Origin: a virus
Virus record (IMG/VR): IMGVR_UViG_3300011116_000982
Coordinates: 1 to 33,206 of that record
Reading direction: 5' to 3' (one strand)
DNA length: 33,206 nt
Position numbers and translations under genes: made by a program. How positions within the stretch are numbered: position 1 is the stretch's first letter; every line of letters begins with the position of its first letter. This document shows positions 16,716-29,947 of the stretch, in pieces. The notes under the pieces were generated by a model. It worked only from the letters and a program-made list of their open reading frames with translations, was not told where the DNA came from and did no database searches.

Positions 16716-16717
16716 CG

Positions 16718-16909: not shown

Positions 16910-17556
16910 ACGCTGGTTTTTCCCGTGCGTGTTGTTTGCTGGCGTTCCGTTGCCGTTTTACGGGCCTTTTGACGCTTCGGGGTGTCGTCGCCCGTTCTCG
17001 TCGTCTTCGTCGCTTCTCGGTGCCGTCTTGCCGCCGCAATCGGTATGTCTGCCTCTCGGGTCGGGAGCGCGTGCACCCTCACCACGAGCTGAGACCATTG
17101 GGCGTCATCCTCGACCGCGATCCAGTCGACCGAAAGGCTTCGGATCTGCCGGTCGTTCTTCCAAAGCTCCGCACCGGGCTCTTCGCCTCGGTGAAGCTGG
17201 CCGGCGTCCATGACGGTCTTTGCCAGGTTGTCGAGGTCGGCCGTTTGCGTCTCGCCCCAAAAGGCAAGGTCGAGGCGCATGGCGGCCTCTGCGGTCCACG
17301 GCGCCTTCCGTGCTTCGTAGAGGCCCCGCACGTAGGCGAGCGTGGCCGCGAGCTTCTCGCAGTGCTGGCGGTATTCGGTCGGCATGAACGTACCGCGGCT
17401 TGTCACGCGCGGCCTCGGGCTCGGCATGTGGGGCGCGAAGACGTGCGCCACGATTTCCCAGCCGATCGCCTCGCTCGTGTACACCGGATAACCGCCCGGC
17501 ACGTCGTGCGCGAACGCTGGAACGCTGATGTCTTCCGCCTTCAGTCTTCGTTTCAT
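16906..17556 (-). CDS. rusA-like: RusA-family Holliday-junction resolvase, 216 aa
   Basis: Cuts four-way junctions formed in recombination and replication, so that branched DNA can be packaged. The family signature is clear: RPRVTSRGTFMP (48-59), the acidic cluster TADLDNLAKTVMDAG (105-119; Asp107, Asp109, Lys113, Asp117) and WKNDRQI (132-138, Asp135). The last ~40 residues form an extra basic tail rich in Lys, Arg and Thr, beyond the usual ~120-140 residue core. It may add DNA affinity. The ATG at 17556 overlaps the preceding stop (ATGA). It fits with the annealing protein and nuclease encoded in the same transcript. Confidence 0.85.
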   Translation of the reverse strand: MKRRLKAEDISVPAFAHDVPGGYPVYTSEAIGWEIVAHVFAPHMPSPRPRVTSRGTFMPTEYRQHCEKLAATLAYVRGLYEARKAPWTAEAAMRLDLAFWGETQTADLDNLAKTVMDAGQLHRGEEPGAELWKNDRQIRSLSVDWIAVEDDAQWSQLVVRVHALPTREADIPIAAARRHREATKTTRTGDDTPKRQKARKTATERQQTTRTGKTSV

Positions 17557-17792
17557 TTGCCCTGCCTCCTGTTGTCTCCGTTGGCGCACGATACGCATTT
17601 GCCGCCTCGTGAGCCCATCTCGTTTTCCCACTTGCGGCTTTGGTATCCGCACCCGCACACGATGAGCCACTGCCGATCGGCTCCGCGTGGGCCATCGACG
17701 AGGAGCTCGGCCACTCGCCACGCGTGCCACGCGTCGCCGGGCCTGAACTTTGGCGGCCGGTGCAAATGCATCATGGGGCCTCGCGTCGTCAT
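17553..17792 (-). CDS. small putative zinc-binding protein, 79 aa
   Basis: It contains a Trp-rich middle (PGDAWHAWRVAELL) and two Cys pairs, CGC in WLIVCGCGYQSRKW and CVSC in GGKCVSCANGD, which suggest one zinc site. No known family is recognised. It is joined by ATGA overlaps to the gene before and the resolvase after. It probably acts on nucleic acid or on a host protein during early infection. Confidence 0.6.
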   Translation of the reverse strand: MTTRGPMMHLHRPPKFRPGDAWHAWRVAELLVDGPRGADRQWLIVCGCGYQSRKWENEMGSRGGKCVSCANGDNRRQGK

Positions 17793-18079
17793 GCTCCGAT
17801 CTCCTCCTCGAGCTGCGCCCGGTCGAGCGTGGGCCACGCACCGGCGGCGGCCTCGAGGGCCTGCCACGCGCCGCTCTCCTCGGGGCGGTCGCGGTGGTGG
17901 CTCGGCTTCTCGAGCCCCACGCGCACGGCTTCGGCGTAAAGCCACGCCGTGAGCTCGCCGGCCGTGTAATCCTCCTCGAGGTCGGCAAAGGCGCGTGTCA
18001 GCACGTCGGCCCCGCTTTCGCCCGTGGCCTTGGCGAGCGCCTCGAGGCGCTGGAGGTGGTGTTCGTCGAGGTAGGTCAT
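17789..18079 (-). CDS. hypothetical helical protein, 96 aa
   Basis: An acidic, mostly helical small protein (MTYLDEHHLQRLEALAKATGESGADVLTRAFADLEEDYTAGELTAWLYAEAVRVG). The first ~25 residues look a little like ribbon-helix-helix or antitoxin-type sequences, but not enough to assign. It is coupled by ATGA overlap to the helicase upstream. It may be a helicase partner. No function assigned. Confidence 0.6.
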   Translation of the reverse strand: MTYLDEHHLQRLEALAKATGESGADVLTRAFADLEEDYTAGELTAWLYAEAVRVGLEKPSHHRDRPEESGAWQALEAAAGAWPTLDRAQLEEEIGA

Positions 18080-19416
18080 GCGTCGTATCTTTCGTGCTGG
18101 GCGTTCCAGTTGAGCGTGAACCAGGCCGGAGAACCCTCGCGGGCCTTCTGAATCGAAAGCCGCGGCTCGCTTGCGCCCTCGCTTTCGGTGCCCGGTATCG
18201 GGCGGGTGAGAATGAGCACGTTATCGGCGTGCCGGAGGATGGCGTACGAATCGCCAATCATGCCGCGCGTTGCCTTTGCGCCGGCCTTCTCGGCCTCGCG
18301 ATTGAGCTGCGCCAGCGCGATGACCGGGACGTTGAGGCCCCGCGCGAGCGTCTTGAGCCGTAGCGCGTACTCGCCGAAGAGCTCGTGCCGCTCGCGGCGT
18401 TGCCGCAGGTCTTCGGCGGTCGGCGTCAGGATGCCGAGGTAGTCCACGACCACGAGGCCGAGGCGCTGCCCTTCGTCGGCGAGCCGTGAGGCCATGAGCT
18501 TTGCGCGCATCGCAACGTGGTCCGTGCTCTGCACCGGGCTGCACGCCCATTCGATGCGGAGGCCCGCGTCCACGAGGCGGCCGATGGCGCGCGTCAAATC
18601 CGAGTAGGCCTGTGGCCGCAGCGGCTCCGGTGCGAGCTCGGGCCGGTGCTCGATGCCGTACTCTTGCCGCGCCACGCGCGCCAGGTTTTGCCCGGCTCCC
18701 ATCTCGAGCCCAACGAACATGCACCACGCGCCGGCGTGATGACACGCTCGCGCGTACTGGATGCCGAGCACCGTCTTACCTACGCCCGTGGCGGCTGCGA
18801 GCACCGTGAGGCTTCCAGGCGTGAGCGGGGCGTGGCGGTCGACGCTCGGCCACGGGCTCGGCGTTGCCGCGCTCGTGCGGGCCTGGAGGCGCTCGAGGAG
18901 TTCCACGGCGGCCTGGCGGGTCGAGACGAGGCCTTCGTCGCGCTCGGCCTGGCGGGCCACGAGGCGCTCGGCGAGCTCCTGGCGTAGCACCTGGCCGGCC
19001 TCTCGCTTCTGCTCTGCTCGCGCTGCACCCTCGAGGCACACGCGGCGGATCTCGCGGCGCTCGTGGGCGTTCACGAGGTCGCTTGCGAGCTCCTCGCCGC
19101 GCTCCTCGGGCGTCAGGCCTCCGCGGTGCAGGTAGGGCGCGGCCTGGTCGCGAATGGCGAGAAACCACGCCTTCCACGATGCGCTCTGTGGGTGCGAGGC
19201 CTTGCTCGCTTGCAGCGCCTCGCAGATACGCGACCACGCTACGCTCGTGCCCTCGGCCTCGAAGGCCTTGGCCACGCGCCAAAAGTCGCCGCACGGCTCC
19301 TGGGCGAAGTGCGCCGGGTCGATGCGCTCGAAGAGCCCAGCGCGCGCGGCTGCGCTCGTGGCGGTCACGAAGACGCAGGCCGCGAGCTCCGCGTCGAGGT
19401 CGATGAGGGTGCTCAC
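18076..19416 (-). CDS. dnaB-like: DnaB-like replicative helicase, 446 aa
   Basis: The hexameric 5'-3' helicase that unwinds DNA at the phage fork. An N-terminal helical domain (residues ~1-90, DLDAELAACVFV ... PAHFAQEPCGDFWRVAKAF) precedes a linker and a RecA-type core. Walker A is ATGVGKT (209-215), Walker B LGLVVVDYLGIL (319-330, Asp325). Sensor/arginine-finger-type segments include VIALAQLNREAE and DSYAILRHADNVLIL. The start is GTG 19416, overlapping the initiator stop as GTGA. It lies downstream of the initiator, as helicase genes do in lambdoid phages. No primase or polymerase was found. Confidence 0.9.
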   Translation of the reverse strand: MSTLIDLDAELAACVFVTATSAAARAGLFERIDPAHFAQEPCGDFWRVAKAFEAEGTSVAWSRICEALQASKASHPQSASWKAWFLAIRDQAAPYLHRGGLTPEERGEELASDLVNAHERREIRRVCLEGAARAEQKREAGQVLRQELAERLVARQAERDEGLVSTRQAAVELLERLQARTSAATPSPWPSVDRHAPLTPGSLTVLAAATGVGKTVLGIQYARACHHAGAWCMFVGLEMGAGQNLARVARQEYGIEHRPELAPEPLRPQAYSDLTRAIGRLVDAGLRIEWACSPVQSTDHVAMRAKLMASRLADEGQRLGLVVVDYLGILTPTAEDLRQRRERHELFGEYALRLKTLARGLNVPVIALAQLNREAEKAGAKATRGMIGDSYAILRHADNVLILTRPIPGTESEGASEPRLSIQKAREGSPAWFTLNWNAQHERYDA

Positions 19417-20060
19417 GACGTTTTGCCCTTGGGGATGCCCAGCATCATGTCGCCATCGTTCCACCCTTTCACGACGGGACGCGGCTTGACGTGAGCCGGC
19501 TCGCGAGCCGGGTCTGAGCGTAGGAGCCACTGGGTAAATGCGGCGTTCCATCGAACGGCGCGGCGTGCGGTAGACTGCGCGTGAAGTCGGAACGTCTCGG
19601 CCTGGTAGGCCAGCGTCAAGCCAAGCTCTGCGGCCTTGGCCTCGTGCTCGGCCGTTGGCGTCCAGTCGGCCGGGAGCTCGAGCTGCGCGGCCTTGCGCGT
19701 TGCGGCCGGTATCTCTCTCTCTTTGTCTCTCTTCTCTTCTCTCTCTCTATTGTCGTGACGGTCACGGGTTGAAACCGGGTGCGTCACGGGTGCGTCACGG
19801 GTCTCCGGTTCACCTTCCTTTGTCCTTTTGCGCACTTGGCGTTCGCGCTCGGAAAGAAGACGGGGGCAGATTCGGGAAAGTTTTGTCTCGATTCCGCGCG
19901 ACTCCAGATCGGAACGCTCCGCTTCCGTGACGTTCGGAAGCTCCTCGAGCTCGCGAGCGAGCTGGAGCTCCCTGGCCGAAACGAACCGTTTGCGAAGCTC
20001 GCGGGGCAAGCTCGCGATGGCCTTCAGCTCGAAGGCCGTGCATTGGAACCATGAGATCAT
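19413..20060 (-). CDS. replication initiator / helicase-loader-like protein, 215 aa
   Basis: The N-terminus MISWFQCTAFELKAIASLPRELRKRF resembles phage replication proteins of the O or DnaT-like type. A charged linker follows (TRDRHDNREREEKRDKER). The C-terminal ~60 residues (LPADWTPTAEHEAKAAELGLTLAYQAETFRLHAQSTARRAVRWNAAFTQWLLR) match the small DnaT-like domain found at the end of many such proteins. It stands directly before the helicase. The ATG at 20060 overlaps the stop of a small upstream ORF (ATGA); another ATG at 20102 is possible. The linker DNA holds repeats that may be the origin. Confidence 0.72.
   Translation of the reverse strand: MISWFQCTAFELKAIASLPRELRKRFVSARELQLARELEELPNVTEAERSDLESRGIETKLSRICPRLLSERERQVRKRTKEGEPETRDAPVTHPVSTRDRHDNREREEKRDKEREIPAATRKAAQLELPADWTPTAEHEAKAAELGLTLAYQAETFRLHAQSTARRAVRWNAAFTQWLLRSDPAREPAHVKPRPVVKGWNDGDMMLGIPKGKTS
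19712..19802. other. candidate replication origin: 9-mer repeats beside a pyrimidine tract
   Basis: The 9-mer GTCACGGGT occurs at 19761..19769, 19783..19791 and 19794..19802. The last two are part of a tandem 11-base repeat, GGGTGCGTCAC. The spacings are 22 and 11 bases, so the copies face the same side of the helix. Next to them, 19712..19749 is almost pure C/T on the plus strand. Lambda and similar phages carry the origin inside the initiator gene in this way. The repeats fall in the linker region of the protein, where the amino-acid sequence is free. Confidence 0.5.
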
Positions 20061-20197
20061 CGTACTGCTCGAAGCGAGGCACGTTGACCCATCGCCCACC
20101 ATGGGCTACGGTTCGCGGTGCTGCATGTTTTCGCCCTCGAGGTCTTGCCGGACTTCGGGGGCTTCGTCTTTCTACGCCTGTTGGCTTGCTCAGGCAA
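20057..20197 (-). CDS. possible small basic protein with TTG start, 46 aa
   Basis: The gap between the 65-residue gene and the initiator holds one open frame that fits its borders exactly. TTG at 20197 directly follows the upstream TGA. The stop at 20057 makes an ATGA overlap with the initiator ATG, like most junctions in this phage. The product is very basic (PEQANRRRKTKPPKSGKTSRAKT...). The TTG start and lack of known relatives keep confidence low. Confidence 0.4.
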   Translation of the reverse strand: MPEQANRRRKTKPPKSGKTSRAKTCSTANRSPWWAMGQRASLRAVR

Positions 20198-20395
20198 TCA
20201 AAACGGGCCGGTGGGCTTTTCCTCGGCTTTGCACGCCTGATGACGCGCCACGAACTGCTCAGTAGCGGTTACAAGTTCCGAGGCCGGCACGGGCAGCGCG
20301 AGGCGCAGTGCGCCCGTGCAGTGCCCGCAATAGAGCACGAGCACCTTGGAGCCGTGGATCTGGTGAATCGTTACGTGTTCCGCGCGCGTTCCCAT
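20198..20395 (-). CDS. hypothetical protein with a Cys pair, 65 aa
   Basis: A short beta-rich protein (TIHQIHGSKVLVLYCGHCTGALRLALPVPASELVTATEQFVARHQAC). The CGHC pair, another Cys and several His could bind zinc. The ATG at 20395 has GGAGAG upstream, within the end of the preceding gene (25-base overlap); the in-frame extension to 20437 is unlikely. No family recognised. Confidence 0.6.
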   Translation of the reverse strand: MGTRAEHVTIHQIHGSKVLVLYCGHCTGALRLALPVPASELVTATEQFVARHQACKAEEKPTGPF

Positions 20396-20532
20396 CGCAC
20401 TCTCTCCTGGTGTTGCTCGGCCAGCATCCGGTGCCACGCAGCCTTGATAGCCGCGGCCTCGCCGCTGCTCTTCACAAGCCGCGCGAAGAGCTTCTCGCCG
20501 ATGGTGCTGATCGCAAGTTCGCGGGCGGTCAT
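20371..20532 (-). CDS. hypothetical small helical protein, 53 aa
   Basis: Short and helical (MTARELAISTIGEKLFARLVKSSGEAAAIKAAWHRMLAEQHQERVRWERARNT). The ATG at 20532 overlaps the preceding stop (ATGA), which supports translation. Its first residues, MTAREL, repeat those of the endolysin by chance or common start context. No function can be given. Confidence 0.55.
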   Translation of the reverse strand: MTARELAISTIGEKLFARLVKSSGEAAAIKAAWHRMLAEQHQERVRWERARNT

Positions 20533-20891
20533 GGTGCCGCTTTGCGGTAACACCGCTTGCACCCTCGCCGGCCTTGCTGGAACGATGCCTTGCGGCACTG
20601 CGTCTCGGTGGCCTCGCGCTCGGCTCCGCACACGGCGCACGCGATGCGCCAAATGCGGGTGTCGTGCTTCTCGTCGGGCGTGAGGCACTCGAGCGGCCGG
20701 ATCTTTGCGCGGGTCCACCAATACGCCCGCGGGTTCGGGCCGCGGTGTAGGCAACCGCAGCTCTTTACGCCGTTGCGCACAACCCACGCCCCATAGCGGC
20801 GCACCGTCTCGCCGCACGCGCACGCGCAAACGAACGGCGTCACGCTTAACACGGTCAGGTTGCCATACACCTCGCCAACGGTCGGGCTCAT
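20529..20891 (-). CDS. zinc-binding protein with homing-endonuclease-like ribbon, 120 aa
   Basis: Ten Cys in two groups. The first, CACACG ... NGVKSCGCLHRG (residues ~22-50), resembles the small zinc ribbon that precedes HNH or GIY-YIG domains in many phage endonucleases (pattern C-x-C-G ... S-C-G-C-L). The second, CAVCGAE ... CRKASF ... CKRC (residues ~85-115), suggests another zinc site. No HNH or GIY-YIG catalytic core is present, so it is a DNA-binding remnant or a regulator rather than an evident nuclease. ATGA overlaps join it to both neighbours. Confidence 0.62.
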   Translation of the reverse strand: MSPTVGEVYGNLTVLSVTPFVCACACGETVRRYGAWVVRNGVKSCGCLHRGPNPRAYWWTRAKIRPLECLTPDEKHDTRIWRIACAVCGAEREATETQCRKASFQQGRRGCKRCYRKAAP

Positions 20892-21349
20892 CGCATGCCC
20901 TCCAGCGTCGTGATGCGCGCCTTCAGTTCGGCGATCTCTTCTTTTGCCAGCTCATGCGCCGCAGCGCGGAGCAGCTCCACGACCTTTCCCACGTTCATCT
21001 CGTCAGCGACACACTCCGCGATGAGTTTGCGAACGCCGTCGTAGCTGATGCCGTACTCGCGCATCTGCGCGGCGTCGGCCCGTAGCTGCTTCATGTACAG
21101 GTCCGTGAGGAGCGTGCGCGTCTCCTGGTGCGCATCGTACTCGTCGACGAAGCGTTGCTCGGCGACCGCGATGCGGTGCGACCATTCGGTCTCGCCAACG
21201 GTGTACGTCACGCGGCTCTCCAGCTCCTTGATGTACGTGAGCAGGCTCAAGGCGTCATAGGCCAGCAGCGCGTCACAAGCACGCGCGCTTGAATCCGTTT
21301 CAACGCTCTGCGCGCGCGCCCGGATGGCGTCGAGGTCGGGGCGGGTCAT
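20888..21349 (-). CDS. hypothetical coiled-coil protein, 153 aa
   Basis: An acidic, largely helical protein (ALSLLTYIKELESRVTYTVGETEWSHRIAVAEQRFVDEYDAHQETRTLL...). The C-terminal ~40 residues (VVELLRAAAHELAKEEIAELKARITTLEGMR) should form a coiled coil. The ATG at 21349 overlaps the preceding stop. It belongs to the cluster of small unknown early genes between the regulator and the replication genes, a region that often holds host-takeover genes. No function assigned. Confidence 0.6.
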   Translation of the reverse strand: MTRPDLDAIRARAQSVETDSSARACDALLAYDALSLLTYIKELESRVTYTVGETEWSHRIAVAEQRFVDEYDAHQETRTLLTDLYMKQLRADAAQMREYGISYDGVRKLIAECVADEMNVGKVVELLRAAAHELAKEEIAELKARITTLEGMR

Positions 21350-21549
21350 CGGTCGGTCCTTGGGTCGAGGTACCACGCCAACCAACGGGCCACGTCTTGC
21401 AGCGCGCGGCGCATGGAGTCGTGCTCGCAGCACACGTTGACGCGCACCGAATAGAGCACGCAGGCATCTCCAATGGTGTCGTCCGTGACTGTGACCGTCG
21501 CGCCGTCGTTTGTGTCGCGCGTCACGTCGAGTCGAAAGGTGCTGGTCAT
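21346..21549 (-). CDS. hypothetical small protein, 67 aa
   Basis: A small protein with a beta-rich first half (STFRLDVTRDTNDGATVTVTDDTIGDACVLYSVRVNVCCEHD) and a helical end (SMRRALQDVARWLAWYLDPRTDR). It has three Cys. ATGA overlaps at both ends support expression. No relatives recognised. Confidence 0.58.
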   Translation of the reverse strand: MTSTFRLDVTRDTNDGATVTVTDDTIGDACVLYSVRVNVCCEHDSMRRALQDVARWLAWYLDPRTDR

Positions 21550-22004
21550 GGCTCCTCCGGGGTCGGCATGTCTCTAAGCTTGTCGGCCACATGGCCTGAA
21601 ACCCAGTGGTCAACCCACTGCGCACACGCCTCGCGCATGGCCTCCGCGCCGCGGCGGTAGGCGCTATCGCGGTCCTCGCGCATGGCCTCGAAGTCGTGCG
21701 CCATTTCGCGCAACCGCCCCACCTCCGCCCGCGCCTCGTCGCGCGCTTCCGTGCGGTCGTTTATGATGCCAAACAAATTCCTGTTGCAGATAAGACAATC
21801 TTCATACAATTCCCGCGCCTCGTCGCGCTCGCGTTGCGCATCGCGCATGTCGATGCGCGTCTCGGAGAGTTCGCGGCGCGTCGCGTCCTCGCGGGCGGTG
21901 ACGCGCTCGACCTCGGCCTCCAGCAGTCTCACGCGCTCTAGCGCCTCGTCGCGCTCGTTCAGCACGCGCCGCAGCTCGGCGATGATCTCCGCGTTCGCTG
22001 TCAT
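21546..22004 (-). CDS. hypothetical coiled-coil protein, 152 aa
   Basis: Residues ~5-65 and ~80-115 are highly charged heptad-like helices (NERDEALERVRLLEAEVERVTAREDATRRELSETRIDMRDAQRERDEARELYE). Between them is a short segment CLICNRNLFGIINDR whose DNA is clearly richer in A/T than its neighbours. The C-terminus is CAQWVDHWVSGHVADKLRDMPTPEEP. It is translationally coupled to the HTH gene by an ATGA overlap, so it could be a partner of the regulator. Function unknown. Confidence 0.6.
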   Translation of the reverse strand: MTANAEIIAELRRVLNERDEALERVRLLEAEVERVTAREDATRRELSETRIDMRDAQRERDEARELYEDCLICNRNLFGIINDRTEARDEARAEVGRLREMAHDFEAMREDRDSAYRRGAEAMREACAQWVDHWVSGHVADKLRDMPTPEEP

Positions 22005-22183
22005 TTGCTTTTTTCCTTCAGGAGCTGCTCGACCGTGATGCCGAGCACGCGCGCAAGGGCGCGCGCGGTGGCGGCTTTGCCGAGACCGGGACGCGCAAGC
22101 CATTGGTATAGGCCCGTGCGGCTGATGCCGGCCTGGCGCGCGATCTCGGTCATGGTGAGCCCGCTGCGTTGAATTGATTTCAT
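22001..22183 (-). CDS. Cro/C1-type HTH transcription regulator, 60 aa
   Basis: A minimal helix-turn-helix protein: TMTEIARQAGISRTGLYQWLARPGLGKAATARALARVLGITVEQLL (residues ~10-55) is the HTH_3 pattern, with SRTGLYQW as recognition helix. There is no dimerisation or cleavage domain, so it resembles Cro rather than a CI-like repressor. A 20-bp dyad ends one base upstream of its ATG (22183), and a related dyad covers the early promoter. It therefore probably controls both. An in-frame TTG at 22219 would extend it through the operator and is less likely. Confidence 0.8.
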   Translation of the reverse strand: MKSIQRSGLTMTEIARQAGISRTGLYQWLARPGLGKAATARALARVLGITVEQLLKEKSK

Positions 22184-22184
22184 G

Positions 22185-22204
22185 TCGTCAACGTATGCTA
22201 ACAG
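22185..22204. promoter_or_regulatory. operator 2, in front of the HTH gene
   Basis: The plus strand reads TCGTCAACGTATGCTAACAG. It agrees with operator 1 (25067..25086) at 14 of 20 positions, and the agreement is concentrated in the two half-sites (GTCAACG and TAACA). Bound repressor would block the start of the HTH mRNA. A weak promoter (TTGCCT, 16 bases, CATACG) may lie across it. Confidence 0.6.
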
Positions 22205-22243
22205 GTTTGCGCAAGGCAAGAGCCGACCGAAGCCGGCTCGTGC

Positions 22244-22564
22244 TTACTTGGTGTTCGCGTATCGCTTCAGGAGCGATCGGCCTTTGGCGGCCAGTCGGCG
22301 CACGGCCTCCATGGTCGTCGGCGCGGCCTCGCCCCACGCTCGAGCGGCCAGCGCGTAGCGCGTCGGCTCGCCGTTGGGCTTCGTGAGCGGCGGCACGTCG
22401 CTGCGCCCGTAGAAGCGCGAAAGGAATGAGCCCTTGCGACGCATTTTCTGCGGCGTGTCTGCCGGGCCTTTGACGCCCGGCTTGAGGTCTGCGCCTTCGG
22501 TGCGGGCGAAGTAGCGGCGGCCGGCGGCCGTGAGGCCTCCCTTGGGATCGCGGAGTTTGCTCAT
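22244..22564 (-). CDS. conserved small phage protein (DUF6321-like), 106 aa
   Basis: The text SKLRDPKGGLTAAGRRYFARTEGADLKPGVKGPADTPQKMRRKGSFLSRFYGR matches a basic phage protein family that I recall under the label DUF6321; this name is from memory. A short helical C-terminus follows (TMEAVRRLAAKGRSLLKRYANTK). The function is unknown; the charge suggests DNA or RNA binding. The ATG at 22564 (MSKLRD) is chosen because the family begins there. It is the last gene before the 60-base gap holding operator 2. Confidence 0.68.
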   Translation of the reverse strand: MSKLRDPKGGLTAAGRRYFARTEGADLKPGVKGPADTPQKMRRKGSFLSRFYGRSDVPPLTKPNGEPTRYALAARAWGEAAPTTMEAVRRLAAKGRSLLKRYANTK

Positions 22565-22580
22565 GGCCGCCAGCCTAGCA

Positions 22581-22946
22581 TCAAAAGAGGTCGTCGCCTT
22601 CGTCGAGGCTCGGCTCGCCTTGGCTCTTCTTGCGCGCCGCCCACGCCGCCGCCTTGGCCGCATCGCGTCGGTCCCATTCGGCCTGCTCGCTCTTGCCGTT
22701 GCCTTCCTTCCACGATGCGCTGCGCTCGAGCTCCGCGGCGAGGAATTCGAGGAAGCGAACCGAGCACGCGCTCATGCGCTGGCCGGCCGGCGAGGGGCCG
22801 TCCCACTTCTTCGGAACGTACTTGATTTCGGGATCTCCAAATCGGGGATCGTCGATGTTTGCGGTGAGGGGCTTGCGCCCGACGCGCTGCGCGCCGTTGC
22901 CGAAAACTGCGGCTTCGAGGGCCGCGAGACGCTGTTCGATGCTCAT
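22581..22946 (-). CDS. recombination-cluster protein with acidic C-terminal tip, 121 aa
   Basis: A conserved-looking small phage protein: an N-terminal helix MSIEQRLAALEAAVFG, then a core DPEIKYVPKKWDGPSPAGQRMSACSVRFLEFLAAELERSASW, a charged helix, and a tail EPSLDEGDDLF. The tip (acidic residues ending in Phe) recalls the protein-recruiting tip of bacterial single-strand binding proteins, though no OB fold is visible. Its ATG overlaps the nuclease stop (ATGA). A partner of the annealing protein and nuclease is a reasonable guess. Confidence 0.62.
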   Translation of the reverse strand: MSIEQRLAALEAAVFGNGAQRVGRKPLTANIDDPRFGDPEIKYVPKKWDGPSPAGQRMSACSVRFLEFLAAELERSASWKEGNGKSEQAEWDRRDAAKAAAWAARKKSQGEPSLDEGDDLF

Positions 22947-23974
22947 GCTTTGATCTCCTGGGTCGTGGTGTAGGTGGTGGTCTTGCTGCACGCGCTGATC
23001 TCCTCGTCGCTCGCGCCCTGCCCGCGTGCGATGGCCTCGAGGGCCTTCGCGTCCATGCTCGTGCGCGAACGCTGCACCACGGTCAGGCGCTTTCCGCCAG
23101 GAAGCGGAAGGCCATCGCCTTCGGCCGCGAGCGCCTTGCAGGCGTCCTCGATGGCCTCGAGGCGCTTCTTTGCTTGGCGCAGCTCTGCCCAAATCTCGCC
23201 CGCGCGCGCCGGCGTGATGGGACCGGCGCCGCCGGGGGCCACGAGCGCGGAGAGGCTCGCGAGCTGGGCGGGGCACGATTGCGCCGCGGGGCAATAGCGG
23301 CACTCGGGTCCGCGTTGCAGCGCGATCGAGCCCTCGTGAACCTCGTTCAGCGCCTCGCCAAGGAGCTCGACGTGGGCGATCAGATCGGCGCGGGTCCACC
23401 AATGCGTGCGCAGTTTTGCGCTTGCCTCGTTCACTTGCACGATGGCCACGAGCACGCCCTCGAGCGTCATCTGATCGTCCATGGCGAGCATGTGCGCAGC
23501 GGCGAGCGTGCGGAGCTGCGCGGTGTCGGCGGCCACGGGCTCCATGCCAAATTTCCAGTCCACGATGGCGTGAACGTCTCGACCGGGCTCGTTCGGCGTA
23601 ATGCGGAGAACGGCGTCCGCGGTGCCTGCGATCTCGTGCCATCTCAAGGGGCCGTATTCGCGCGGGCCGGTGAGCTGCACGATTCGGCCGGTGCGCGTCT
23701 CGGTGTCAAGCACGTAGGCGCGCTCGGTGTCCACCTCTGCGATTTGCCCAACGTCTCGGGCCATGTCCACCTCCAGCACGTCCCACGCGAGCCGCGTGAA
23801 GCGTTCGCCGATGACTGCATCGGTCATCTCGAGCTGGCCGCGCATGGTCTCCATGATGGCGTGGAGCCTCGTTCCCTCGGTTGCGGCGTCGCTGGTCTCA
23901 CGTACCCACGCAAGGCGCGCGTGGCCGCTGCACTGGAGGAGGCGCCCGGAGCCGCTTGCGGTGACGCGGTTCAT
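22943..23974 (-). CDS. PD-(D/E)XK exonuclease with Fe-S-type cysteines, 343 aa
   Basis: The nuclease partner of a two-gene recombination pair. The core shows GTRLHAI (34-40), IAGTADAVLRI (115-125, Asp120), AIVDWKFG (136-143, Asp139 and Lys141) and a Gln/Tyr-motif-like TAQLRTLAAAHML. Cys15 plus the late trio CRYCPAAQSC (Cys225, 228, 234) have the spacing of the 4Fe-4S nucleases related to AddB and Cas4. It probably degrades one strand from DNA ends, leaving ssDNA for the ERF protein encoded just before it. The ATG at 23974 overlaps that gene's stop. Confidence 0.82.
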   Translation of the reverse strand: MNRVTASGSGRLLQCSGHARLAWVRETSDAATEGTRLHAIMETMRGQLEMTDAVIGERFTRLAWDVLEVDMARDVGQIAEVDTERAYVLDTETRTGRIVQLTGPREYGPLRWHEIAGTADAVLRITPNEPGRDVHAIVDWKFGMEPVAADTAQLRTLAAAHMLAMDDQMTLEGVLVAIVQVNEASAKLRTHWWTRADLIAHVELLGEALNEVHEGSIALQRGPECRYCPAAQSCPAQLASLSALVAPGGAGPITPARAGEIWAELRQAKKRLEAIEDACKALAAEGDGLPLPGGKRLTVVQRSRTSMDAKALEAIARGQGASDEEISACSKTTTYTTTQEIKA

Positions 23975-24555
23975 GGGGCCTCTGCTGCGGCCTTGAGGAA
24001 CTCACCACGCGCACGCCACGCGGCAACCGCGGCGGCGCCGAGGCGCGCGGCGTCGGCCTTGCGGCTGCGGAGCTCCTCGAGGTCGTTGCACGCCTTGACC
24101 TGCGCGATGAACGCGGCCAGCTCGTCGTGCGCCGGCTTCGAGGGTGCGGCGCTGGCCGCGTTGCCGTCGTCGTCGTCGTCTGCGGCCACGCCCACGATCG
24201 CTTGAAGCGCGTAGCGCCGCGCGTAGGTCATCGCGGAGCCGTATCCCTGCGGGTCGGCCTTCACGGGTTGGATGGGGTAGTAGCCGCACAATTCCTCGTC
24301 GCGCCAGTGCAAGCGGGTCACGAGGAGCAGGCGGCCCTGCTCGTCGACCTGCGTCGTCTGCGTGAGCGCGATGCCGTGCTTTGCGAGCACCGGGCGCACG
24401 GTCTTCAGCACGGTCGCCAAATCGGCGTACCGGCTGCGGAAGTGCGGGTTCACGGCGTCCTTTTGGGGATCCGTGATCTCAAGCTGCGCGGCGGCGAGCG
24501 CCTCCGCGAGGGTCTGCGGGCCCGTTGGGGCCTCGGTCGTCTTCGTCGTTGCCAT
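23971..24555 (-). CDS. erf-like: ERF-family single-strand annealing protein, 194 aa
   Basis: Pairs complementary single strands for recombination and genome circularisation. The family signature YADLATVLKTVRPVLAKHGIALTQTT (43-68) and DPQGYGSAMTYARRYALQAIVGVAAD (101-126) is present. An acidic run (DDDDDG) and a flexible C-terminal helix follow. The ATG at 24555 has AGGAG upstream. The long in-frame extension to 24846 overlaps other genes and is rejected. It forms a pair with the nuclease that follows by ATGA overlap. P22-type phages need such a protein to circularise permuted DNA. Confidence 0.88.
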   Translation of the reverse strand: MATTKTTEAPTGPQTLAEALAAAQLEITDPQKDAVNPHFRSRYADLATVLKTVRPVLAKHGIALTQTTQVDEQGRLLLVTRLHWRDEELCGYYPIQPVKADPQGYGSAMTYARRYALQAIVGVAADDDDDGNAASAAPSKPAHDELAAFIAQVKACNDLEELRSRKADAARLGAAAVAAWRARGEFLKAAAEAP

Positions 24556-24626
24556 TGTCTTCTCCTGCCTCGCCTTGTGGCGCTGCCCGATGCACGCGAG
24601 AGCCTCGCGAGCACGAGGGCAAAGCC

Positions 24627-24719
24627 TCAGGGCAAGAGCATCGCGCCGACGATGAACGCCGCGAGCATGAGTGTTCCGCCGATGGCCTCGAGGAGCTGGG
24701 CGCGGTCGTAGGCGCTCAC
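24627..24719 (-). CDS. tiny single-span membrane protein, 30 aa
   Basis: GTG at 24719 makes a GTGA overlap with the preceding stop and gives MSAYDRAQLLEAIGGTLMLAAFIVGAMLLP. Residues ~12-30 are one hydrophobic membrane helix. The coupling and the clean membrane profile support expression despite its size. An early membrane protein could act in superinfection exclusion or on host membrane proteins; this is a guess. Confidence 0.5.
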   Translation of the reverse strand: MSAYDRAQLLEAIGGTLMLAAFIVGAMLLP

Positions 24720-24997
24720 TGGGCCACCTCGCGGCCGAACGTCTCGGCGTCGTCGTGCTCGAGGGCGCGGAGCTCGTCGGCGACCTGCGCCTCGTAGGCG
24801 GCGAGGGCCGATCGCATCTCGGCCTCATTGCCGTCGGCGTACACATGGCGGCCGGAGTCGTGCTCGATCCATCCCTCGGGGCTTGCGTTCAGCGACTCAC
24901 GGAGTTGCTCCCACGTCGCGAGCGCAACGTAGTCGCCGGCCGCGTCAATCAACCAATATTCAGTGGTGAGGTCGGTGGCAATGTCGTTCGTGTTCAT
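24716..24997 (-). CDS. first early gene, acidic hypothetical protein, 93 aa
   Basis: The first gene after the strong early promoter, with AGGAG (25004..25008) six bases before the ATG. The product is strongly acidic (WLIDAAGDYVALATWEQLRESLNASPEGWIEHDSGRHVYADGNEAEMRSALAAYEAQVADELRALEHDDAETFG). Small acidic first-expressed proteins are often inhibitors of host defence or host enzymes, some of them DNA mimics. Nothing in the sequence proves this. No family recognised. Confidence 0.62.
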   Translation of the reverse strand: MNTNDIATDLTTEYWLIDAAGDYVALATWEQLRESLNASPEGWIEHDSGRHVYADGNEAEMRSALAAYEAQVADELRALEHDDAETFGREVAQ

Positions 24998-25044
24998 GGT
25001 CGTCTCCTGCGCGTTTGGGGAATCGCGTTTCCCGGTATGCGGAG

Positions 25045-25073
25045 ACTATACGCACGCCCGCGCGCGGTGTCAA
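25045..25073 (-). promoter_or_regulatory. early promoter, near-consensus sigma-70
   Basis: On the minus strand TTGACA (25068..25073) and TATAGT (25045..25050) are exactly 17 bases apart. The -35 is perfect and the -10 matches 5 of 6. Transcription would start near 25038 and run leftward into the gene at 24997, whose ribosome site is AGGAG. It is the only promoter of this quality that I found. A 20-bp dyad covers its -35. Confidence 0.85.
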
Positions 25074-25086
25074 CGCACGTTAACAC
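25067..25086. promoter_or_regulatory. operator 1, over the -35 of the early promoter
   Basis: GTGTCAACGCACGTTAACAC on the plus strand is an inverted repeat with half-sites GTGTCAACG and GTGTTAACG (one mismatch) around a 2-base centre. It contains the whole -35 hexamer, so a bound regulator would exclude RNA polymerase. The 60-residue HTH protein, with a related dyad at its own gene, is the likely binder. Confidence 0.7.
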
Positions 25087-25122
25087 TTTTCGAGACGATT
25101 GTTCACGCGGCGAGGAGAAACG

Positions 25123-26028
25123 CTAGGGAAGCGGTCGACGCACGAAGAGCCGTGCGAGCCACACGAGGAGCCGGAGCCACCACGGGCGCGGGGCCTCCAC
25201 GAGCGGCTCTCCGATGCGAGGAAGCACCACGGGCGCCACTGGAGGCGGTGCCGGTGACGTGGGCTCGCTGGGGGCCGTGGGCGCCTCAATACGGGCCGTT
25301 TGCGGCTCCGGTGCGGGCACGGTGGCCGCGAGGCTTACGAGGGCCTCCACGGGGCGCGTGGGCGGCGCTGGCGCGGTGTCGGGCACGAGCCGCGCATACT
25401 CCCGCGCGATGCTGGCGACGTTCTTGGAGTAGACCTTCGGGTCCGCGGTAAAGTACCCCTTGTCACGCAGCCGCGTAACGAACGTGAGCGGATCGTTCGC
25501 CAGGGCCGCGTCCACGGCTTCGACGTAGCGGGCCTCGCGGAAACCGTCGGCCGCAGGCTTGCCGACCATGAATGCGCAATGGTGCGCCACGGCGTCGGCG
25601 AGCGTCTCGAAGGCCACGAAACGATTCATCGGGTGCGGGCCGCTGAACGTCAGAATCCACTTTCCATCGGCGTCTTCGCCGACCTTCTGCACCTTGGTCC
25701 CGGCCGGCGCCTCGGCCATGTACTTCGACGCCGCCGGGGGCGCGAAGTGCTCGCGGGTCGTGAAGTGCTGGTAGCATTCCGTCCAGCCCTTCGGGCACTT
25801 GATGCCGCCGAGGTTGTAGTTGCTGATGCTCTTGAAGCGCCCGGTCTCGAGTGCCATCTGCGCCAGCATGATCACCGTCGCGGCGCGGAGCTCCTCGGCC
25901 GTGGCCGCGGGCTTGCCCTGCTCGGCTCGGCGCGCGTTTACGAGCGGCTCGAGCTGGAGGCGGACGGCAAGGTAGAGGTCAGGAATCGCCACGGGCGTCT
26001 TCCTAGCCTGGAGCTCGCGCGCGGTCAT
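25123..26028 (-). CDS. endolysin: glucosaminidase with hydrophobic C-terminal tail, 301 aa
   Basis: Cuts glycan strands of peptidoglycan at lysis. Residues ~15-215 form a FlgJ/glucosaminidase-like domain. MLAQMALETGRFKSISNYNLGGIK holds the likely catalytic Glu61, and later come CYQHFTTREHF and GKWILTFSGPHPMNRFVAFETLADAVAHHCAFM. A proline-rich linker (~216-281) then leads to PWWLRLLVWLARLFVRRPLP (282-301), a Trp-rich, cationic, hydrophobic helix. There is no N-terminal signal. The tail could anchor the enzyme in a membrane or disrupt the outer membrane. It is the last gene of the late unit; its ATG overlaps the previous stop. Confidence 0.82.
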   Translation of the reverse strand: MTARELQARKTPVAIPDLYLAVRLQLEPLVNARRAEQGKPAATAEELRAATVIMLAQMALETGRFKSISNYNLGGIKCPKGWTECYQHFTTREHFAPPAASKYMAEAPAGTKVQKVGEDADGKWILTFSGPHPMNRFVAFETLADAVAHHCAFMVGKPAADGFREARYVEAVDAALANDPLTFVTRLRDKGYFTADPKVYSKNVASIAREYARLVPDTAPAPPTRPVEALVSLAATVPAPEPQTARIEAPTAPSEPTSPAPPPVAPVVLPRIGEPLVEAPRPWWLRLLVWLARLFVRRPLP

Positions 26029-26471
26029 GCTTTGCCCCTCGCCATGCTTTGCGCGATGCGGATTGCGGGCTTGTCACGGTAGCGCGCGGTTTTCTTCGCG
26101 ATGCGCTCGGGCTGCTTGCTGAACTGCTCGCCGCGCTTCGTGGCCTCACGCTTCGCGCGGGTCGTCGCGCCGTACTCGGCCGGAGTCAGGGCCTCGCGTG
26201 CGGCCTTGGGCAAGTAGCGTTCTCCCGTAGCTTTCGGGCCTTGCGTCGAGGGCTTGCCGCTCTTCGTGCCCCACTTCTCTTTCGTCCACTGAACGAGGCT
26301 TTTTTGGCCTCCGCTCTTCTTCCCGCGGTATCCGCCGCCGGCCTTCTCGTAGGCCTGGGCGAGAAGCTGCGCCTTGCGCGCGCTCCATTGGCCTGGGCGT
26401 CCACCCTTGTCGCCGGCCATGATGCGATCCTTGATGCGCTCGCGGAGCTCGGGGCGGGTGTACTTGCTCAC
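26025..26471 (-). CDS. DUF5872-like conserved phage protein, 148 aa
   Basis: A basic protein with the strongly conserved stretch KSLVQWTKEKWGTKSGKPSTQGPKATGERYLPKAAREALTPAEYGATTRAKREATKRGEQFSKQPERIAKKTARYR (about residues 58-135). I know it from many phages and giant viruses as a domain of unknown function (DUF5872, from memory). The start is GTG 26471, overlapping the preceding stop (GTGA). The charge suggests DNA or RNA binding or packaging in the virion. Its place next to lysis genes gives no clear role. Confidence 0.75.
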   Translation of the reverse strand: MSKYTRPELRERIKDRIMAGDKGGRPGQWSARKAQLLAQAYEKAGGGYRGKKSGGQKSLVQWTKEKWGTKSGKPSTQGPKATGERYLPKAAREALTPAEYGATTRAKREATKRGEQFSKQPERIAKKTARYRDKPAIRIAQSMARGKA

Positions 26472-26611
26472 GACTTGCCCCGCGCGGCCTCGAGCGCGAT
26501 GGCGATGATCTGCTTCATCGGTCGCTTTTTGCCGCCTGCGCCCTTGGCCTTGCCCTTCTTTTTGTTGTCGGCCTGAAGTTCGGCGATGTTCTTTCCAACG
26601 TCTTTACTCAT
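26468..26611 (-). CDS. small basic phage protein, 47 aa
   Basis: The ATG at 26611 overlaps the previous gene by 8 bases, and its stop forms GTGA with the next gene. Sequence: MSKDVGKNIAELQADNKKKG, a Lys/Gly-rich linker, then KRPMKQIIAIALEAARGKS. The last segment resembles a short motif (KQIIAIAL) found in other small basic phage proteins, often near DUF5872-type genes. Nucleic-acid binding is likely from the charge; the role is unknown. Confidence 0.62.
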   Translation of the reverse strand: MSKDVGKNIAELQADNKKKGKAKGAGGKKRPMKQIIAIALEAARGKS

Positions 26612-26930
26612 CGGCATTTTCGATCTCCCTCACGAGCGCGGCGAGCTGCTCCGAGCTTGCCGCAACGGTGGCCAGTTGCTTGCGCAATTCGGGGTCTCGG
26701 CGGGCCTTTTCGACAAGCCGCGCCTTGGCCTCGGGGCTCGACACGATGAGCGCCTGAAGGGCCGCCAGGGAGGCGCTCGGGGGCATCGTTGCGCGAGAGC
26801 CGGCGAACCACTCGTAGAGCTCGCGGATCAGTTTGATGATCACGAGCGCCACCTCGAGACCCTCTTTGATGTCGTCGCCGCTGGGCATGTAGAACGCGAT
26901 CGCGTTCTGCTCGTGGTCATGGTCGCTCAT
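26604..26930 (-). CDS. hypothetical helical protein, 108 aa
   Basis: The ATG at 26930 (MSDHDHEQN) overlaps the lipoprotein stop (ATGA); the upstream extension to 26960 is rejected. The N-terminal half has an amphipathic or membrane-adjacent helix (DDIKEGLEVALVIIKLIRELYEWFAG). The C-terminal half is a charged helical stretch (PEAKARLVEKARRDPELRKQLATVAASSEQLAALVREIENADE). It sits in the membrane/lysis gene group and may be a peripheral membrane protein. No family recognised. Confidence 0.58.
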   Translation of the reverse strand: MSDHDHEQNAIAFYMPSGDDIKEGLEVALVIIKLIRELYEWFAGSRATMPPSASLAALQALIVSSPEAKARLVEKARRDPELRKQLATVAASSEQLAALVREIENADE

Positions 26931-27169
26931 GGCTTGCGCTCCTCGAGCTCCGCTCCGCACTTGCTCGCGAGGAGAGCCGCACGCACTCGGCTGTAGTTGA
27001 CTCCGCAGGCGAGGAGCAGCTCAGGATCGCGTTTCTCCAGGCCAGCGGAAGCGCAAGCGGCATCGAAGGCGATGGCGGCGTGGGCGGTCGCAACGCACGG
27101 CCGAGGAGCACACCCGCCGAGAAAGAGAGCAGCGCCAAGAGCGGAGAGAGCTCTACAAGGTCCATTCAT
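26927..27169 (-). CDS. phage lipoprotein with lipobox, 80 aa
   Basis: The N-terminus MNGPCRALSALGAALFLGGC has a short hydrophobic core and a lipobox L-G-G-C, so Cys20 would be lipidated after signal peptidase II cleavage. The mature part is small, with four more Cys (APRPC ... DAACASAG ... LLLACGV ... SKCGAEL), which could form disulphides in the periplasm. It sits in the lysis gene group and could be an outer-membrane spanin, though it lacks the usual proline-rich stretch; superinfection exclusion is another option. The ATG at 27169 overlaps the preceding stop. Confidence 0.7.
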   Translation of the reverse strand: MNGPCRALSALGAALFLGGCAPRPCVATAHAAIAFDAACASAGLEKRDPELLLACGVNYSRVRAALLASKCGAELEERKP

Positions 27170-27384
27170 CGCTCCACCTTTCCGGTGGCATCCTTGAGCG
27201 CGTTCAGCGCCTTGTGAACGTCGAGCCCGGTGGCCGAGCAGAAACGAATCAGGGCCGCGAGGCGAGGACGCTCCATCGCGAAGACCATCCACTGCTCGGG
27301 CGTCTTGAAGCGAAACAGGGCGTTGACGACGGCCGAGAAGATCGGCCACGCCACCGCGATCCAAAGCTCCACTCGCTCATGCAT
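27166..27384 (-). CDS. small membrane protein, possible holin, 72 aa
   Basis: The N-terminal part HERVELWIAVAWPIFSAVVNALFRF holds one likely membrane helix (residues ~5-24). It is followed by an amphipathic region (EQWMVFAMERPRLAALIRFCSATG) that may be a second hydrophobic helix, and a short charged end. Size, topology and position in the lysis group fit a holin, but no family is recognised. The ATG at 27384 overlaps the end of the preceding gene by 8 bases. Confidence 0.55.
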   Translation of the reverse strand: MHERVELWIAVAWPIFSAVVNALFRFKTPEQWMVFAMERPRLAALIRFCSATGLDVHKALNALKDATGKVER

Positions 27385-27955
27385 TCGTTCCGCCCTTTCG
27401 CTTTGCCGCCTTCTCCAAGCGTTCGATGCGCTCTAGCACGTCGCTTGGAAGGCTTGGGGCTACAAGCGTTTCACCCTTCGCCACGCGGGCCTCTAGCTCC
27501 GCGATGCGCGCCGCGCACGGCGCGTGATTGCCCTGCTGCTTAATCCTCGCCATGTTCTCCTCATGGCGACCGTTGATCGCGCTCGGGAGCACGCGGAACG
27601 CAATTGCGGAAAGCGACGCGATGGCCGCAAAGGCCAACACCTCGGGGCCTTTCAATCCCTCTGGGATGGCGCTCTTCAGCGTCGCCACGTCGAAGCGGTC
27701 AGGCTGCACCTCGACGGCCTGCGGGGCCGCTGGCGGGGCCGCTGGAGCCGCTGGCGCAGGCGTCTGTACGGGTGCGGTCGATGCGTCCATCGGTGGCCGT
27801 CGTTTCTGCGTTGGTGAGTCGTCGACCAGGAAGCGCGCGAGGAGCAGTGTCGACGAGTCGGGCGGATATGGCGACCCGGCGTCAAGCCACTCCTCCACCG
27901 TCATTCGCGCGCCAAGAATCTCGAACGGGCGTCGCTCAGAGTCATCCGTGTTCAT
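27377..27955 (-). CDS. single-span membrane protein with coiled-coil end, 192 aa
   Basis: An N-terminal soluble part (~1-60) is followed by an Ala/Pro linker (VQTPAPAAPAAPPAAPQAVEVQP). One hydrophobic segment, EVLAFAAIASLSAIAFRVLP, lies at about residues 104-123, and a coiled-coil C-terminus follows (ARIAELEARVAKGETLV ... DVLERIERLEKAAKRKGG). The layout could suit an inner-membrane spanin-like or holin-associated protein. The ATG at 27955 overlaps the preceding stop (ATGA). Internal ATGs, for example at MDASTAPV, are alternatives. Function not established. Confidence 0.55.
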   Translation of the reverse strand: MNTDDSERRPFEILGARMTVEEWLDAGSPYPPDSSTLLLARFLVDDSPTQKRRPPMDASTAPVQTPAPAAPAAPPAAPQAVEVQPDRFDVATLKSAIPEGLKGPEVLAFAAIASLSAIAFRVLPSAINGRHEENMARIKQQGNHAPCAARIAELEARVAKGETLVAPSLPSDVLERIERLEKAAKRKGGTNA

Positions 27956-28179
27956 CCACGGTGCGCCCCGTTCTTGCTTTGCTGGCGGTGCACGGTCTCA
28001 ATGACGGCGATGGCCGTCTCGTGCGTTTGTACGGCCTTGGTCAGCTCTTTGACTTGCTCGCTGATCGCCTTCACGTCTTCGCGCACGCCGTCGAGCTGAG
28101 TGGACACCCGTGCCGCCCACCAAATCGCGGCGCCGAGCTGGGCTGCCAAAAAGGTGGCGAGCGGCACGAGCGGCATCAC
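27952..28179 (-). CDS. small membrane protein with coiled coil, holin-like, 75 aa
   Basis: A hydrophobic helix at residues ~3-23 (PLVPLATFLAAQLGAAIWWAA) is followed by a heptad-patterned stretch (VSTQLDGVREDVKAISEQVKELTKAVQTHETAIAVIETVHRQQ). Its combination of one span and a short coiled coil recalls XhlA-type haemolysin/holin partners, with reversed order. The start is GTG 28179 (GTGA overlap), with an ATG one codon later. A role in lysis is likely from position. Confidence 0.6.
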   Translation of the reverse strand: MMPLVPLATFLAAQLGAAIWWAARVSTQLDGVREDVKAISEQVKELTKAVQTHETAIAVIETVHRQQSKNGAHRG

Positions 28180-28358
28180 GGCGCGGCCTCTTCCTGCACC
28201 ACGGGCACCTGTTCGGCCACGAGGCCGAGCTTGGGGCCGAGGAGCGTAAGCGCCTCGTGCACGAGCGCGCTCTCGTGAATCTCGAAGGCGCCGAGCTTCT
28301 GGCCCTTTGCGAGGGCCTGCACGAGCACCTGGGCGGCTTGCTTCTCGTCGAGGGCCAT
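28176..28358 (-). CDS. hypothetical small helical protein, 60 aa
   Basis: The ATG at 28358 lies one base after the previous stop, and its TGA overlaps the next GTG. Sequence: MALDEKQAAQVLVQALAKGQ, then ... GPKLGLVAEQVPVVQEEAAP. It is helical, without membrane segments or Cys. It separates the tail-fibre genes from the membrane-protein genes. No family recognised. Confidence 0.58.
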   Translation of the reverse strand: MALDEKQAAQVLVQALAKGQKLGAFEIHESALVHEALTLLGPKLGLVAEQVPVVQEEAAP

Positions 28359-28359
28359 C

Positions 28360-28710
28360 TCACACGCTCCCATCAGCCGGAGGAAGCGGAGCGCCATCGG
28401 GGAGCACGGGCGGTGCCGTGATGACCGGCGGCGGGGGTTCGACCATCGCAGGCGCGTCGGGCACGATCTCAATGATCGTAAGACCGAGCTGCGCGGCGGT
28501 GTAGGTGTAGAGGTAATCGTCGTCGGTGCCCCAGGCGGCGTAGGCGTCGCCCGTGAGGTTGATGGTGCCGGTCGTGAGGTTCGCGCGCTCAGCGCTCTGG
28601 AGCCACCACTGGTAGCTTGCAGACGCGCCCGGCTGCACGTTGACGTTGTTGATCCAGAGCACGGTGGCCGTGGATGGGAAGACGGAAACGGGTTCGATGG
28701 TTGCGAACAT
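28360..28710 (-). CDS. small fibre-associated protein, 116 aa
   Basis: A beta-rich N-terminal ~85 residues (VFPSTATVLWINNVNVQPGASASYQWWLQSAERANLTTGTINLTGDAYAAWGTDDDYLYTYTAAQLGLTIIEI), then a Pro-rich tail (EPPPPVITAPPVLPDGAPLPP). Position directly after the fibre gene suggests a minor tail protein or fibre chaperone. The ATG at 28710 is nine bases after the fibre stop. No known family. Confidence 0.55.
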   Translation of the reverse strand: MFATIEPVSVFPSTATVLWINNVNVQPGASASYQWWLQSAERANLTTGTINLTGDAYAAWGTDDDYLYTYTAAQLGLTIIEIVPDAPAMVEPPPPVITAPPVLPDGAPLPPADGSV

Positions 28711-28719
28711 GGGGGTTCC

Positions 28720-29946
28720 TTAAACGCTGTATGAGAAGCTGAACACAATCGTCGTGCCTGCCTGAATGTTGGCGGCTGCGTCGTCGTTTCGTGTGTTTGG
28801 CGAGTAGCGGTCAAAATAAACGATCGGCGTTGCCGACGTGTCGCTGGTGCCCACGATGATGTTACCGGAGGGCACGCCCGTCGTGTCATTTGTGCGCGTC
28901 TCGCACACGAAGAACGTGAACGGCTGCGGGCACCCAGTAAGCGTGCACGAGAGACGCCCAAGCGGGGCAGACACCGACGAGACGACGATACGCCCGTGCC
29001 CGATGACTTTGTTGCCCACGCGCGTTACACGCGCCTTGCTGCTCGCAGCGTTGACCGTGATGGTGCCCGACGTTCCGCAGGTGAGCGTGAGCGCGATCTC
29101 GGCGGGCGTACCGGTGCCGATCTCCTGATACGCATCCAGCGTCTGCGTGTCCGCGTTGCCCGGCGTCGCGGGGAGTTTGAGGCCCCATCCGGAGCCGATG
29201 CTGATGTTCAGCAGGCTATTTGCCGCCTCAAAGCGAAGGCGGACGTTCCCCGCGGCGTCGCGGAATGTCACCGTGTCGCCCTGCGTTTCGAAGATGGTGC
29301 CTGCGGTTGTCGGACGACCGACAGCAAAGTTCCCGTTAGAGTCGATGCGGGCGCGTTCGAGGTTGCCGGTGAGGAACACGAACGGGAATGAGCCGCCAGT
29401 GCCGGCGCGATACTCTGACGTAGCATCGTTCCACACCTGGTAGCCGTAGCGCGTGGCCGAGTTGCTGCACACGATGGTCGGATTCGTCGCGCGAACGTCC
29501 AGCGTACCAATAGGGCTCGCCGTGCCGATGCCGACGTTGCCGGATGCGTCGATGCGGGCGCTCTCCAACCACGTCAGCGCGTTTCCAGCCGTTCCGTTTC
29601 CGGCTCGGTTAAAGATAATCGCTCCAGCGTTTGCCCGAATCGAGTTTGACGGCGTGCTAGCCGCAACAGCATATTTCCATCCGCCGCCGGAATGTTTCGC
29701 GTTGGCCGTGATCCAAAGGTCGTTATCAGCGTTAACGAAGCCGCTTCCAAGACCGCCAACCTCTAGAGCTTTGTAGCCTGCAAGGTCTGTGGTCGGAGCG
29801 TTTCCGATGCCGATCGCGTTTGCGGTCGATCCCTGGATAATGATCGAATCCCCCAACGTGCTCGCGCCCGTCCAACGGGGGATCGTGTTCGTGGTGCCGG
29901 TGCCGCCGATATCGGCGCCTGCCTGCTCGTATTGAGGAGCGCCCAT
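28720..29946 (-). CDS. tail fibre / receptor-binding protein, 408 aa
   Basis: The likely host-recognition protein. The N-terminal part (GTGTTNTIPRWTGASTLGDSIIIQG) attaches to the tail. The shaft has the repeated motif ARIDASGNVGIGTASPIGTLDV and ARIDSNGNFAVGRPTT, known from trimeric fibres. The last ~130 residues (TLTCGTSGTITVNAASSKARVTRVGNKVIGHGRIVVSS ... GTTIVFSFSYSV) look like a jelly-roll C1q-type tip domain. Base composition is somewhat less GC-rich than in the capsid genes, as is common for exchanged fibre genes. The ATG at 29946 follows the previous stop by one base. Confidence 0.75.
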   Translation of the reverse strand: MGAPQYEQAGADIGGTGTTNTIPRWTGASTLGDSIIIQGSTANAIGIGNAPTTDLAGYKALEVGGLGSGFVNADNDLWITANAKHSGGGWKYAVAASTPSNSIRANAGAIIFNRAGNGTAGNALTWLESARIDASGNVGIGTASPIGTLDVRATNPTIVCSNSATRYGYQVWNDATSEYRAGTGGSFPFVFLTGNLERARIDSNGNFAVGRPTTAGTIFETQGDTVTFRDAAGNVRLRFEAANSLLNISIGSGWGLKLPATPGNADTQTLDAYQEIGTGTPAEIALTLTCGTSGTITVNAASSKARVTRVGNKVIGHGRIVVSSVSAPLGRLSCTLTGCPQPFTFFVCETRTNDTTGVPSGNIIVGTSDTSATPIVYFDRYSPNTRNDDAAANIQAGTTIVFSFSYSV

Positions 29947-29947
29947 G

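Follow-up and report, generated by a model that had tools for sequence, protein, structure and literature searches.

The 33,206-base virus record IMGVR_UViG_3300011116_000982, referred to here as the window, contains two similar 20-base dyads, op1 and op2, one over the -35 element of an early promoter and the other at the start of a gene for a 60-residue helix-turn-helix (HTH) protein. The HTH protein is proposed to be a single-domain repressor that binds both dyads, silencing the early operon and damping its own, a reading to which we assign, on sequence evidence, a probability of about 0.8. The system falls among the small phage repressors with autoregulation that are already known and represents a fairly ordinary type of circuit. 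That the sites are paired, conserved, confined to these two places and present in the same genomes as the HTH gene was computed directly, and we infer binding, dimerization, repression, a promoter at op2 and the role in timing. The elements concerned are the following.

25067..25086: candidate operator op1 (dyad 1), covering the early-promoter -35 from roughly -48 to -29; plus strand GTGTCAACGCACGTTAACAC, minus strand GTGTTAACGTGCGTTGACAC.
22185..22204: candidate operator op2 (dyad 2), ending one base before the ATG of the HTH gene (22183); plus strand TCGTCAACGTATGCTAACAG, minus strand CTGTTAGCATACGTTGACGA.
25045..25073, minus strand: early promoter TTGACA-17-TATAGT with 11 of 12 consensus bases (consensus scan; the same promoter is present in relatives).
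22001..22183, minus strand: HTH protein of 60 residues with an HTH_3 lambda-repressor-like domain, the proposed repressor (profile, model and relatives).
22220..22239, minus strand: hairpin with a UUCG loop just upstream of op2, terminator-like with a weak U tract (folding and comparison).

A sequence-only reading of the window had described both dyads, and they are present at these positions with 14 of 20 bases identical. It had also described op1 as covering the -35 of the only strong promoter, and scanning the window with a simple consensus bore this out, since no other strong promoter-like site was found (none in 1-20000, and one weaker site, 9/12, in 20000-33206). The whole -35 sequence TTGACA (25073-25068, minus strand) lies inside op1, which is symmetric in eight of ten pairs. 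A site over the -35 occupies a position of repression, and the locations of the two dyads would fit a small repressor of an early promoter and of its own expression, as in lambdoid Cro. The early promoter is followed, in order, by a gene for a 93-residue protein and those for an ERF protein, an exonuclease, a 121-residue protein and a DUF6321 protein.

When relatives are included, the paired sites are far beyond chance. Six relatives, G001 (L002), G002 (L003), G003 (L004), G004 (L005), G005 (L006/L013) and G006 (L007), were retrieved by a viral-contig search with the window nuclease as query; they come from environmental DNA, and the phage group is known here only from metagenomes. Four of the six are 32-34 kb in size in differing permutations, suggesting that these four are near-complete genomes, but the contigs may be incomplete. 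The nuclease, the early promoter and the HTH gene are all present in G001-G004, with nucleases 59-67% identical to that of the window; in G005 and G006, the end of a contig divides the nuclease or cuts it short. All four of G001-G004 have an op1-like operator over the early-promoter -35 and a matching site that abuts or overlaps the ATG of the homologous HTH gene. The identity of op2 to the op1 of the same genome is 18, 18, 13 and 17 of 20 in G001, G002, G003 and G004, respectively, and matches of 18/20 and 17/20 did not occur once in 20,000 simulated regions.

A symmetrized matrix trained without the tested genome (and, for G001 and G002, without the near-identical twin as well) gave op1 the highest and op2 the second-highest score across the genome in each of the five, i.e. 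the window and G001-G004, with the next-best site lower in every case. The sequence-only reading had noted only isolated half-sites elsewhere. The margin is small in G001, where op2 scores 24.3 and a neighbour overlapping op2 scores 20.3; the best scores in G005 and G006 are no higher than about 11. Among ATG starts of coding-strand open reading frames of at least 60 residues, the HTH start has the best match to the genome's own op1 in five of five genomes, the exception being a G001 reading frame that overlaps op1 itself. In the op2 of G004, AACA is changed to ATCA in both arms together, a concerted change that fits a dyad read by a symmetric dimer. No HTH_3 gene was found in G005, although its nuclease, ERF gene and early leader are present; its early promoter (TTGACT) lacks the operator, and no site was found elsewhere in the ~30 of 34 kb scanned. 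G006 is uninformative for op1 because its contig does not reach the early promoter. Five genomes thus have both the operator pair and the HTH gene, and one has neither. The matrix scan and the comparison with relatives, both suggested in the sequence-only reading, came out in its favour.

Other searches added no further members. With the 60-residue protein alone as query, there were no matches in viral contigs, and a search with an alignment of the HTH family returned the four relatives and otherwise only weak, unrelated XRE proteins. A promoter-pattern scan recovered the four relatives and six other contigs, none of the six having a GTTAAC half-site before the promoter or a match to a window protein. 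In 28 further contigs, nearly all retrieved with the portal, there was no HTH match; a lysis gene, which adjoins the early region, is present in only one of them, suggesting that they are mostly fragments carrying structural genes and give no evidence either way.

A similar hairpin with a UUCG loop is found in all five genomes, with z-scores of -3.8 to -5.5, and op2 and the HTH gene come next. The last gene before the hairpin is the DUF6321 gene in the window, G003 and G004, but this gene is located elsewhere in G001 and G002; because the preceding gene differs, the hairpin seems to move as a unit with op2 and the HTH gene. The first early genes have a Shine-Dalgarno sequence and the HTH gene has none, which, with the hairpin lying just upstream, suggests that the HTH transcript is probably nearly leaderless and starts in or near op2. 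A TG-n-TA motif inside op2 that resembles an extended -10 was not accepted as a promoter since it coincides with an operator half-site and lacks a -35. The gene that comes after the HTH gene overlaps its stop codon, and the series runs on to those for a replication-initiation-like protein and a DnaB-like helicase, so op2 probably governs a second operon also. The suggestion of the sequence-only reading that the HTH protein shuts off early transcription and its own gene is thus supported by the comparison as a putative function, but op2 appears to head a whole operon and not the HTH gene alone. In G001 and G002 (L002 9300-9329 and L003 5792-5821), a third half-site overlaps op2, displaced upstream by one turn of the helix, and might make it a tandem operator.

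By profile and predicted fold, the HTH protein is placed among the HTH_3 or lambda-repressor-like (Cro/C1-type, XRE) proteins. It matches HTH_3 (PF01381) with 28.3 bits against a curated cut-off of 23, and the predicted model has five helices, with the helix-turn-helix (helices 2 and 3) at residues 11-18 and 22-30 and a mean predicted local distance difference test score (pLDDT) of 85. The homologues in G001-G004 are 55-65% identical to the window protein. Co-variation of operator and recognition helix, a comparison that had been proposed from the window sequence, gave a divided result that is suggestive only: position 23 of the recognition helix reads T/T/T/A/G while the innermost base of the op1 half-site goes from G through mixed to A in G003/G004, whereas position 27 (Q or L) shows no matching pattern. 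Matches from a PDB sequence search, mostly to designed or repetitive proteins through one helix, were set aside as a composition artefact, and those from PADLOC (mad1, capH) as generic HTH similarity.

In the proposed mechanism, a dimer of the HTH protein would bind two operators whose sequence is approximately RTGTYAAC-N4-GTTRACAY. Lying over the -35 at op1, it would block RNA polymerase and turn off the recombination genes for the ERF annealing protein and the exonuclease. Bound to op2, where the HTH gene starts, it would damp this gene and the replication genes that follow in a negative feedback; the HTH transcript would probably begin in or near the operator and have almost no leader. Profile searches for tyrosine integrase (PF00589), serine recombinase (PF00239) and the S24-type repressor domain found none in the seven contigs (the window and its six relatives), which may be incomplete, and the positive controls worked. 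The phage thus shows no sign, by its gene content, of being temperate; with neither an integrase nor a CI-like gene found, the most likely role of the circuit would be an early-to-middle shut-off.

A CI-type opponent sharing operators at divergent promoters was not found in the window, which has a single HTH_3 gene, no S24 domain and its main genes on one strand. Membership in the Cro/CI switches is not claimed because the CI partner was searched for and not found, and 'Cro-only' is a fair description of the likely mode of action. The earlier statement that there is no CI-like partner is true of the window but does not extend to all members of the group, because G004 and G006 carry another small HTH gene. 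In G004, it lies directly downstream of the first (L005 11966-12276), and in G006 a different HTH gene of 93 residues lies near the equivalent place (L007 1090-1371).

Several observations weigh against the repressor proposed here. From the window alone, the evidence is weak, and a single genome would have left the claim plausible without proving it. The op2 of the window is poorly symmetric (five of ten pairs), inspection by eye for a sigma-70 promoter gave no convincing candidate at op2, and the op2 of G003 falls well below the other relatives in its match to its own op1. The pair is found in five genomes only, two of them near-identical (G001/G002), and the negative control is one genome, G005. 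The nearest folds identified by Foldseek are the DNA-binding domains of SinR, P22 c2 and 434, all with E > 0.001. The centre of op1 is near -38.5, within a few bases of the positions of class II activators, so that the HTH protein might bind both sites and activate, or have a dual action, boosting the early promoter, its own operon or both, like lambda CI at PRM. This is improbable, given that the promoter, with its consensus -35 and near-consensus -10, needs no activator, that op1 overlaps the -35 itself, and that op2 abuts or overlaps the start codon in five of five genomes.

The dyads could also be sites for a host transcription factor, with the HTH gene beside op2 by coincidence; palindromes of this length are common targets of host regulators, and binding by the HTH protein is itself a deduction. 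We give this only a slim chance, because the sites occur at these two places only, op2 is always at the start of the HTH gene and not of other genes, and the gene and the sites are absent together from G005. The other small HTH genes of G004 and G006 raise the question of a hidden partner, the circuit then being the remnant of a two-repressor lysogeny switch. This appears very unlikely in view of the single HTH_3 gene in each of the window, G001, G002 and G003, the failure of the profile searches to find an integrase, a serine recombinase or an S24 domain in the seven contigs, and the result of portal and helicase profile scans of 84,980 bacterial and archaeal genomes, a method that is not exhaustive, in which no relatives were found. 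Least credible of all is that the likeness of op2 to op1 arose by chance or that op2 is conserved as the coding sequence of an N-terminal extension of the HTH protein. The window by itself would allow chance: it has 38 20-mers at least as symmetric as op1 compared with ~45 expected in shuffled sequence, 13% of its positions reach the symmetry of op2, and matches to op1 of at least 14/20 have a mean of 1.4 per shuffled genome, although for the 65 nucleotides around the HTH start the probability of the op2-op1 match is ~0.002. In the window and in each of G001, G002, G003 and G004, the HTH frame also stays open on the 5' side of the ATG. Against this reading, coding would give no resemblance to op1, the 18/20 and 17/20 matches in the relatives did not arise in the simulations, and the two arms change jointly in G004.

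The P22 c2 and 434 repressors are larger repressors of temperate phages with a C-terminal domain and several operators. The window protein resembles their DNA-binding domains in its predicted five-helix lambda-repressor-like fold (Foldseek TM-score ~0.7-0.8) but has 60 residues and no further domain. The C proteins of restriction-modification systems regulate their own operon, are located with restriction and methylase genes and often activate. C.BclI and C.Esp1396I are likewise small single-domain HTH proteins of what is, from the model, the same fold, but the second target here is a phage early promoter. No methyltransferase was seen among the scanned neighbours of the HTH gene; an HNH endonuclease gene is present at 20529-20891. 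The Cro of the telomere phage PY54, a small HTH repressor, has its palindromic operator where a repressor gene starts, and the cro and cI transcripts are leaderless (PMC4488713). It acts together with CI as a pair; the site near cI is the only one that it binds, and it is not considered to repress its own gene (PMC4488713). The window system is similar in its small HTH protein, its palindromic site at the start of a repressor gene and its suspected leaderless transcript; it differs in that no CI was found and in having two sites 2.9 kb apart, one of them at the regulator's own gene. Staphylococcus aureus phage SA97 has neither cI- nor cro-like repressors and forms no lysogens but keeps an integrase (PMC4632378). 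The present phage is like it in that no cI-like repressor was found. It differs in that the searches detected no integrase, and in the conservation of a single small repressor together with its operators. No circuit of exactly this kind was found described in the open-access literature.

If the proposal is true, this would be a minimal natural circuit for early shut-off in a phage, in which a single repressor acts on two targets through a common operator sequence and no lysogeny genes were found, and it would provide a precise, checkable regulator for this phage group. The matched operator pairs and diverged recognition helices of the relatives make operator-repressor co-evolution directly testable. 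If the HTH protein also blocked a second infecting phage, it would confer immunity without lysogeny. That a single autoregulated repressor of 60 residues and two operators form a complete temporal switch for recombination and replication, and might give superinfection immunity or pseudolysogeny without CI or integrase, is a speculative and rather unlikely extension.

The major genes of the window are all on the minus strand and comprise structural genes and the terminase, replication genes and the early operon. Those around the two operators, with the repeat in the early leader, are listed below.

25018..25033, minus strand: inverted repeat GGGAAACGCGATTCCC in the early leader, between the promoter and the first gene (sequence comparison).
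24716..24997, minus strand: first early gene, 93 residues, matching no known family (profile searches).
23971..24555, minus strand: ERF-type single-stranded DNA annealing protein of the early operon (Pfam ERF, 1.4e-24; PHROG 2324).
22943..23974, minus strand: PD-(D/E)XK exonuclease (DUF2800/PDDEXK_1) of the early operon (profile searches).
22581..22946, minus strand: conserved early gene, 121 residues, without assigned function (profile searches and comparison).
22244..22564, minus strand: DUF6321 gene (profile search and comparison).
21546..22004, minus strand: gene after the HTH gene, overlapping its stop codon and beginning the downstream operon (positions of open reading frames).
19413..20102, minus strand: replication-initiation-like protein (PHROG 1032).
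18076..19551, minus strand: DnaB-like helicase, downstream of op2 (profile searches).

The GGGAAACGCGATTCCC repeat is kept wherever the early leader is in the sequence (L002 6358, L003 3363, L004 3207, L005 9071 and L013 7722), including G005, which is without op1 and the HTH gene, and it may be a leader RNA element or an antitermination signal. The HNH-endonuclease-like gene (PHROG 374) has no match in the six relatives and is possibly a recent insertion. An acetyltransferase-like gene (window 14671-15210) lies between the genes for the small and large terminase and has homologues in all six relatives. Repeats of the form GTGAC..TCACGTGA spaced 30 bp apart are present at L002 12303-12352, L003 9607-9656, L054 2974-3023 and L007 2418-2467, directly upstream of the helicase gene and within the region of the replication-initiator gene, followed in L002 by a tract of AAGAC repeats. 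They look like the iterons of a replication origin, and a weaker GTGACGCACCC form of them is found in the window at ~19740-19800 (minus strand), ahead of a GAGA tract.

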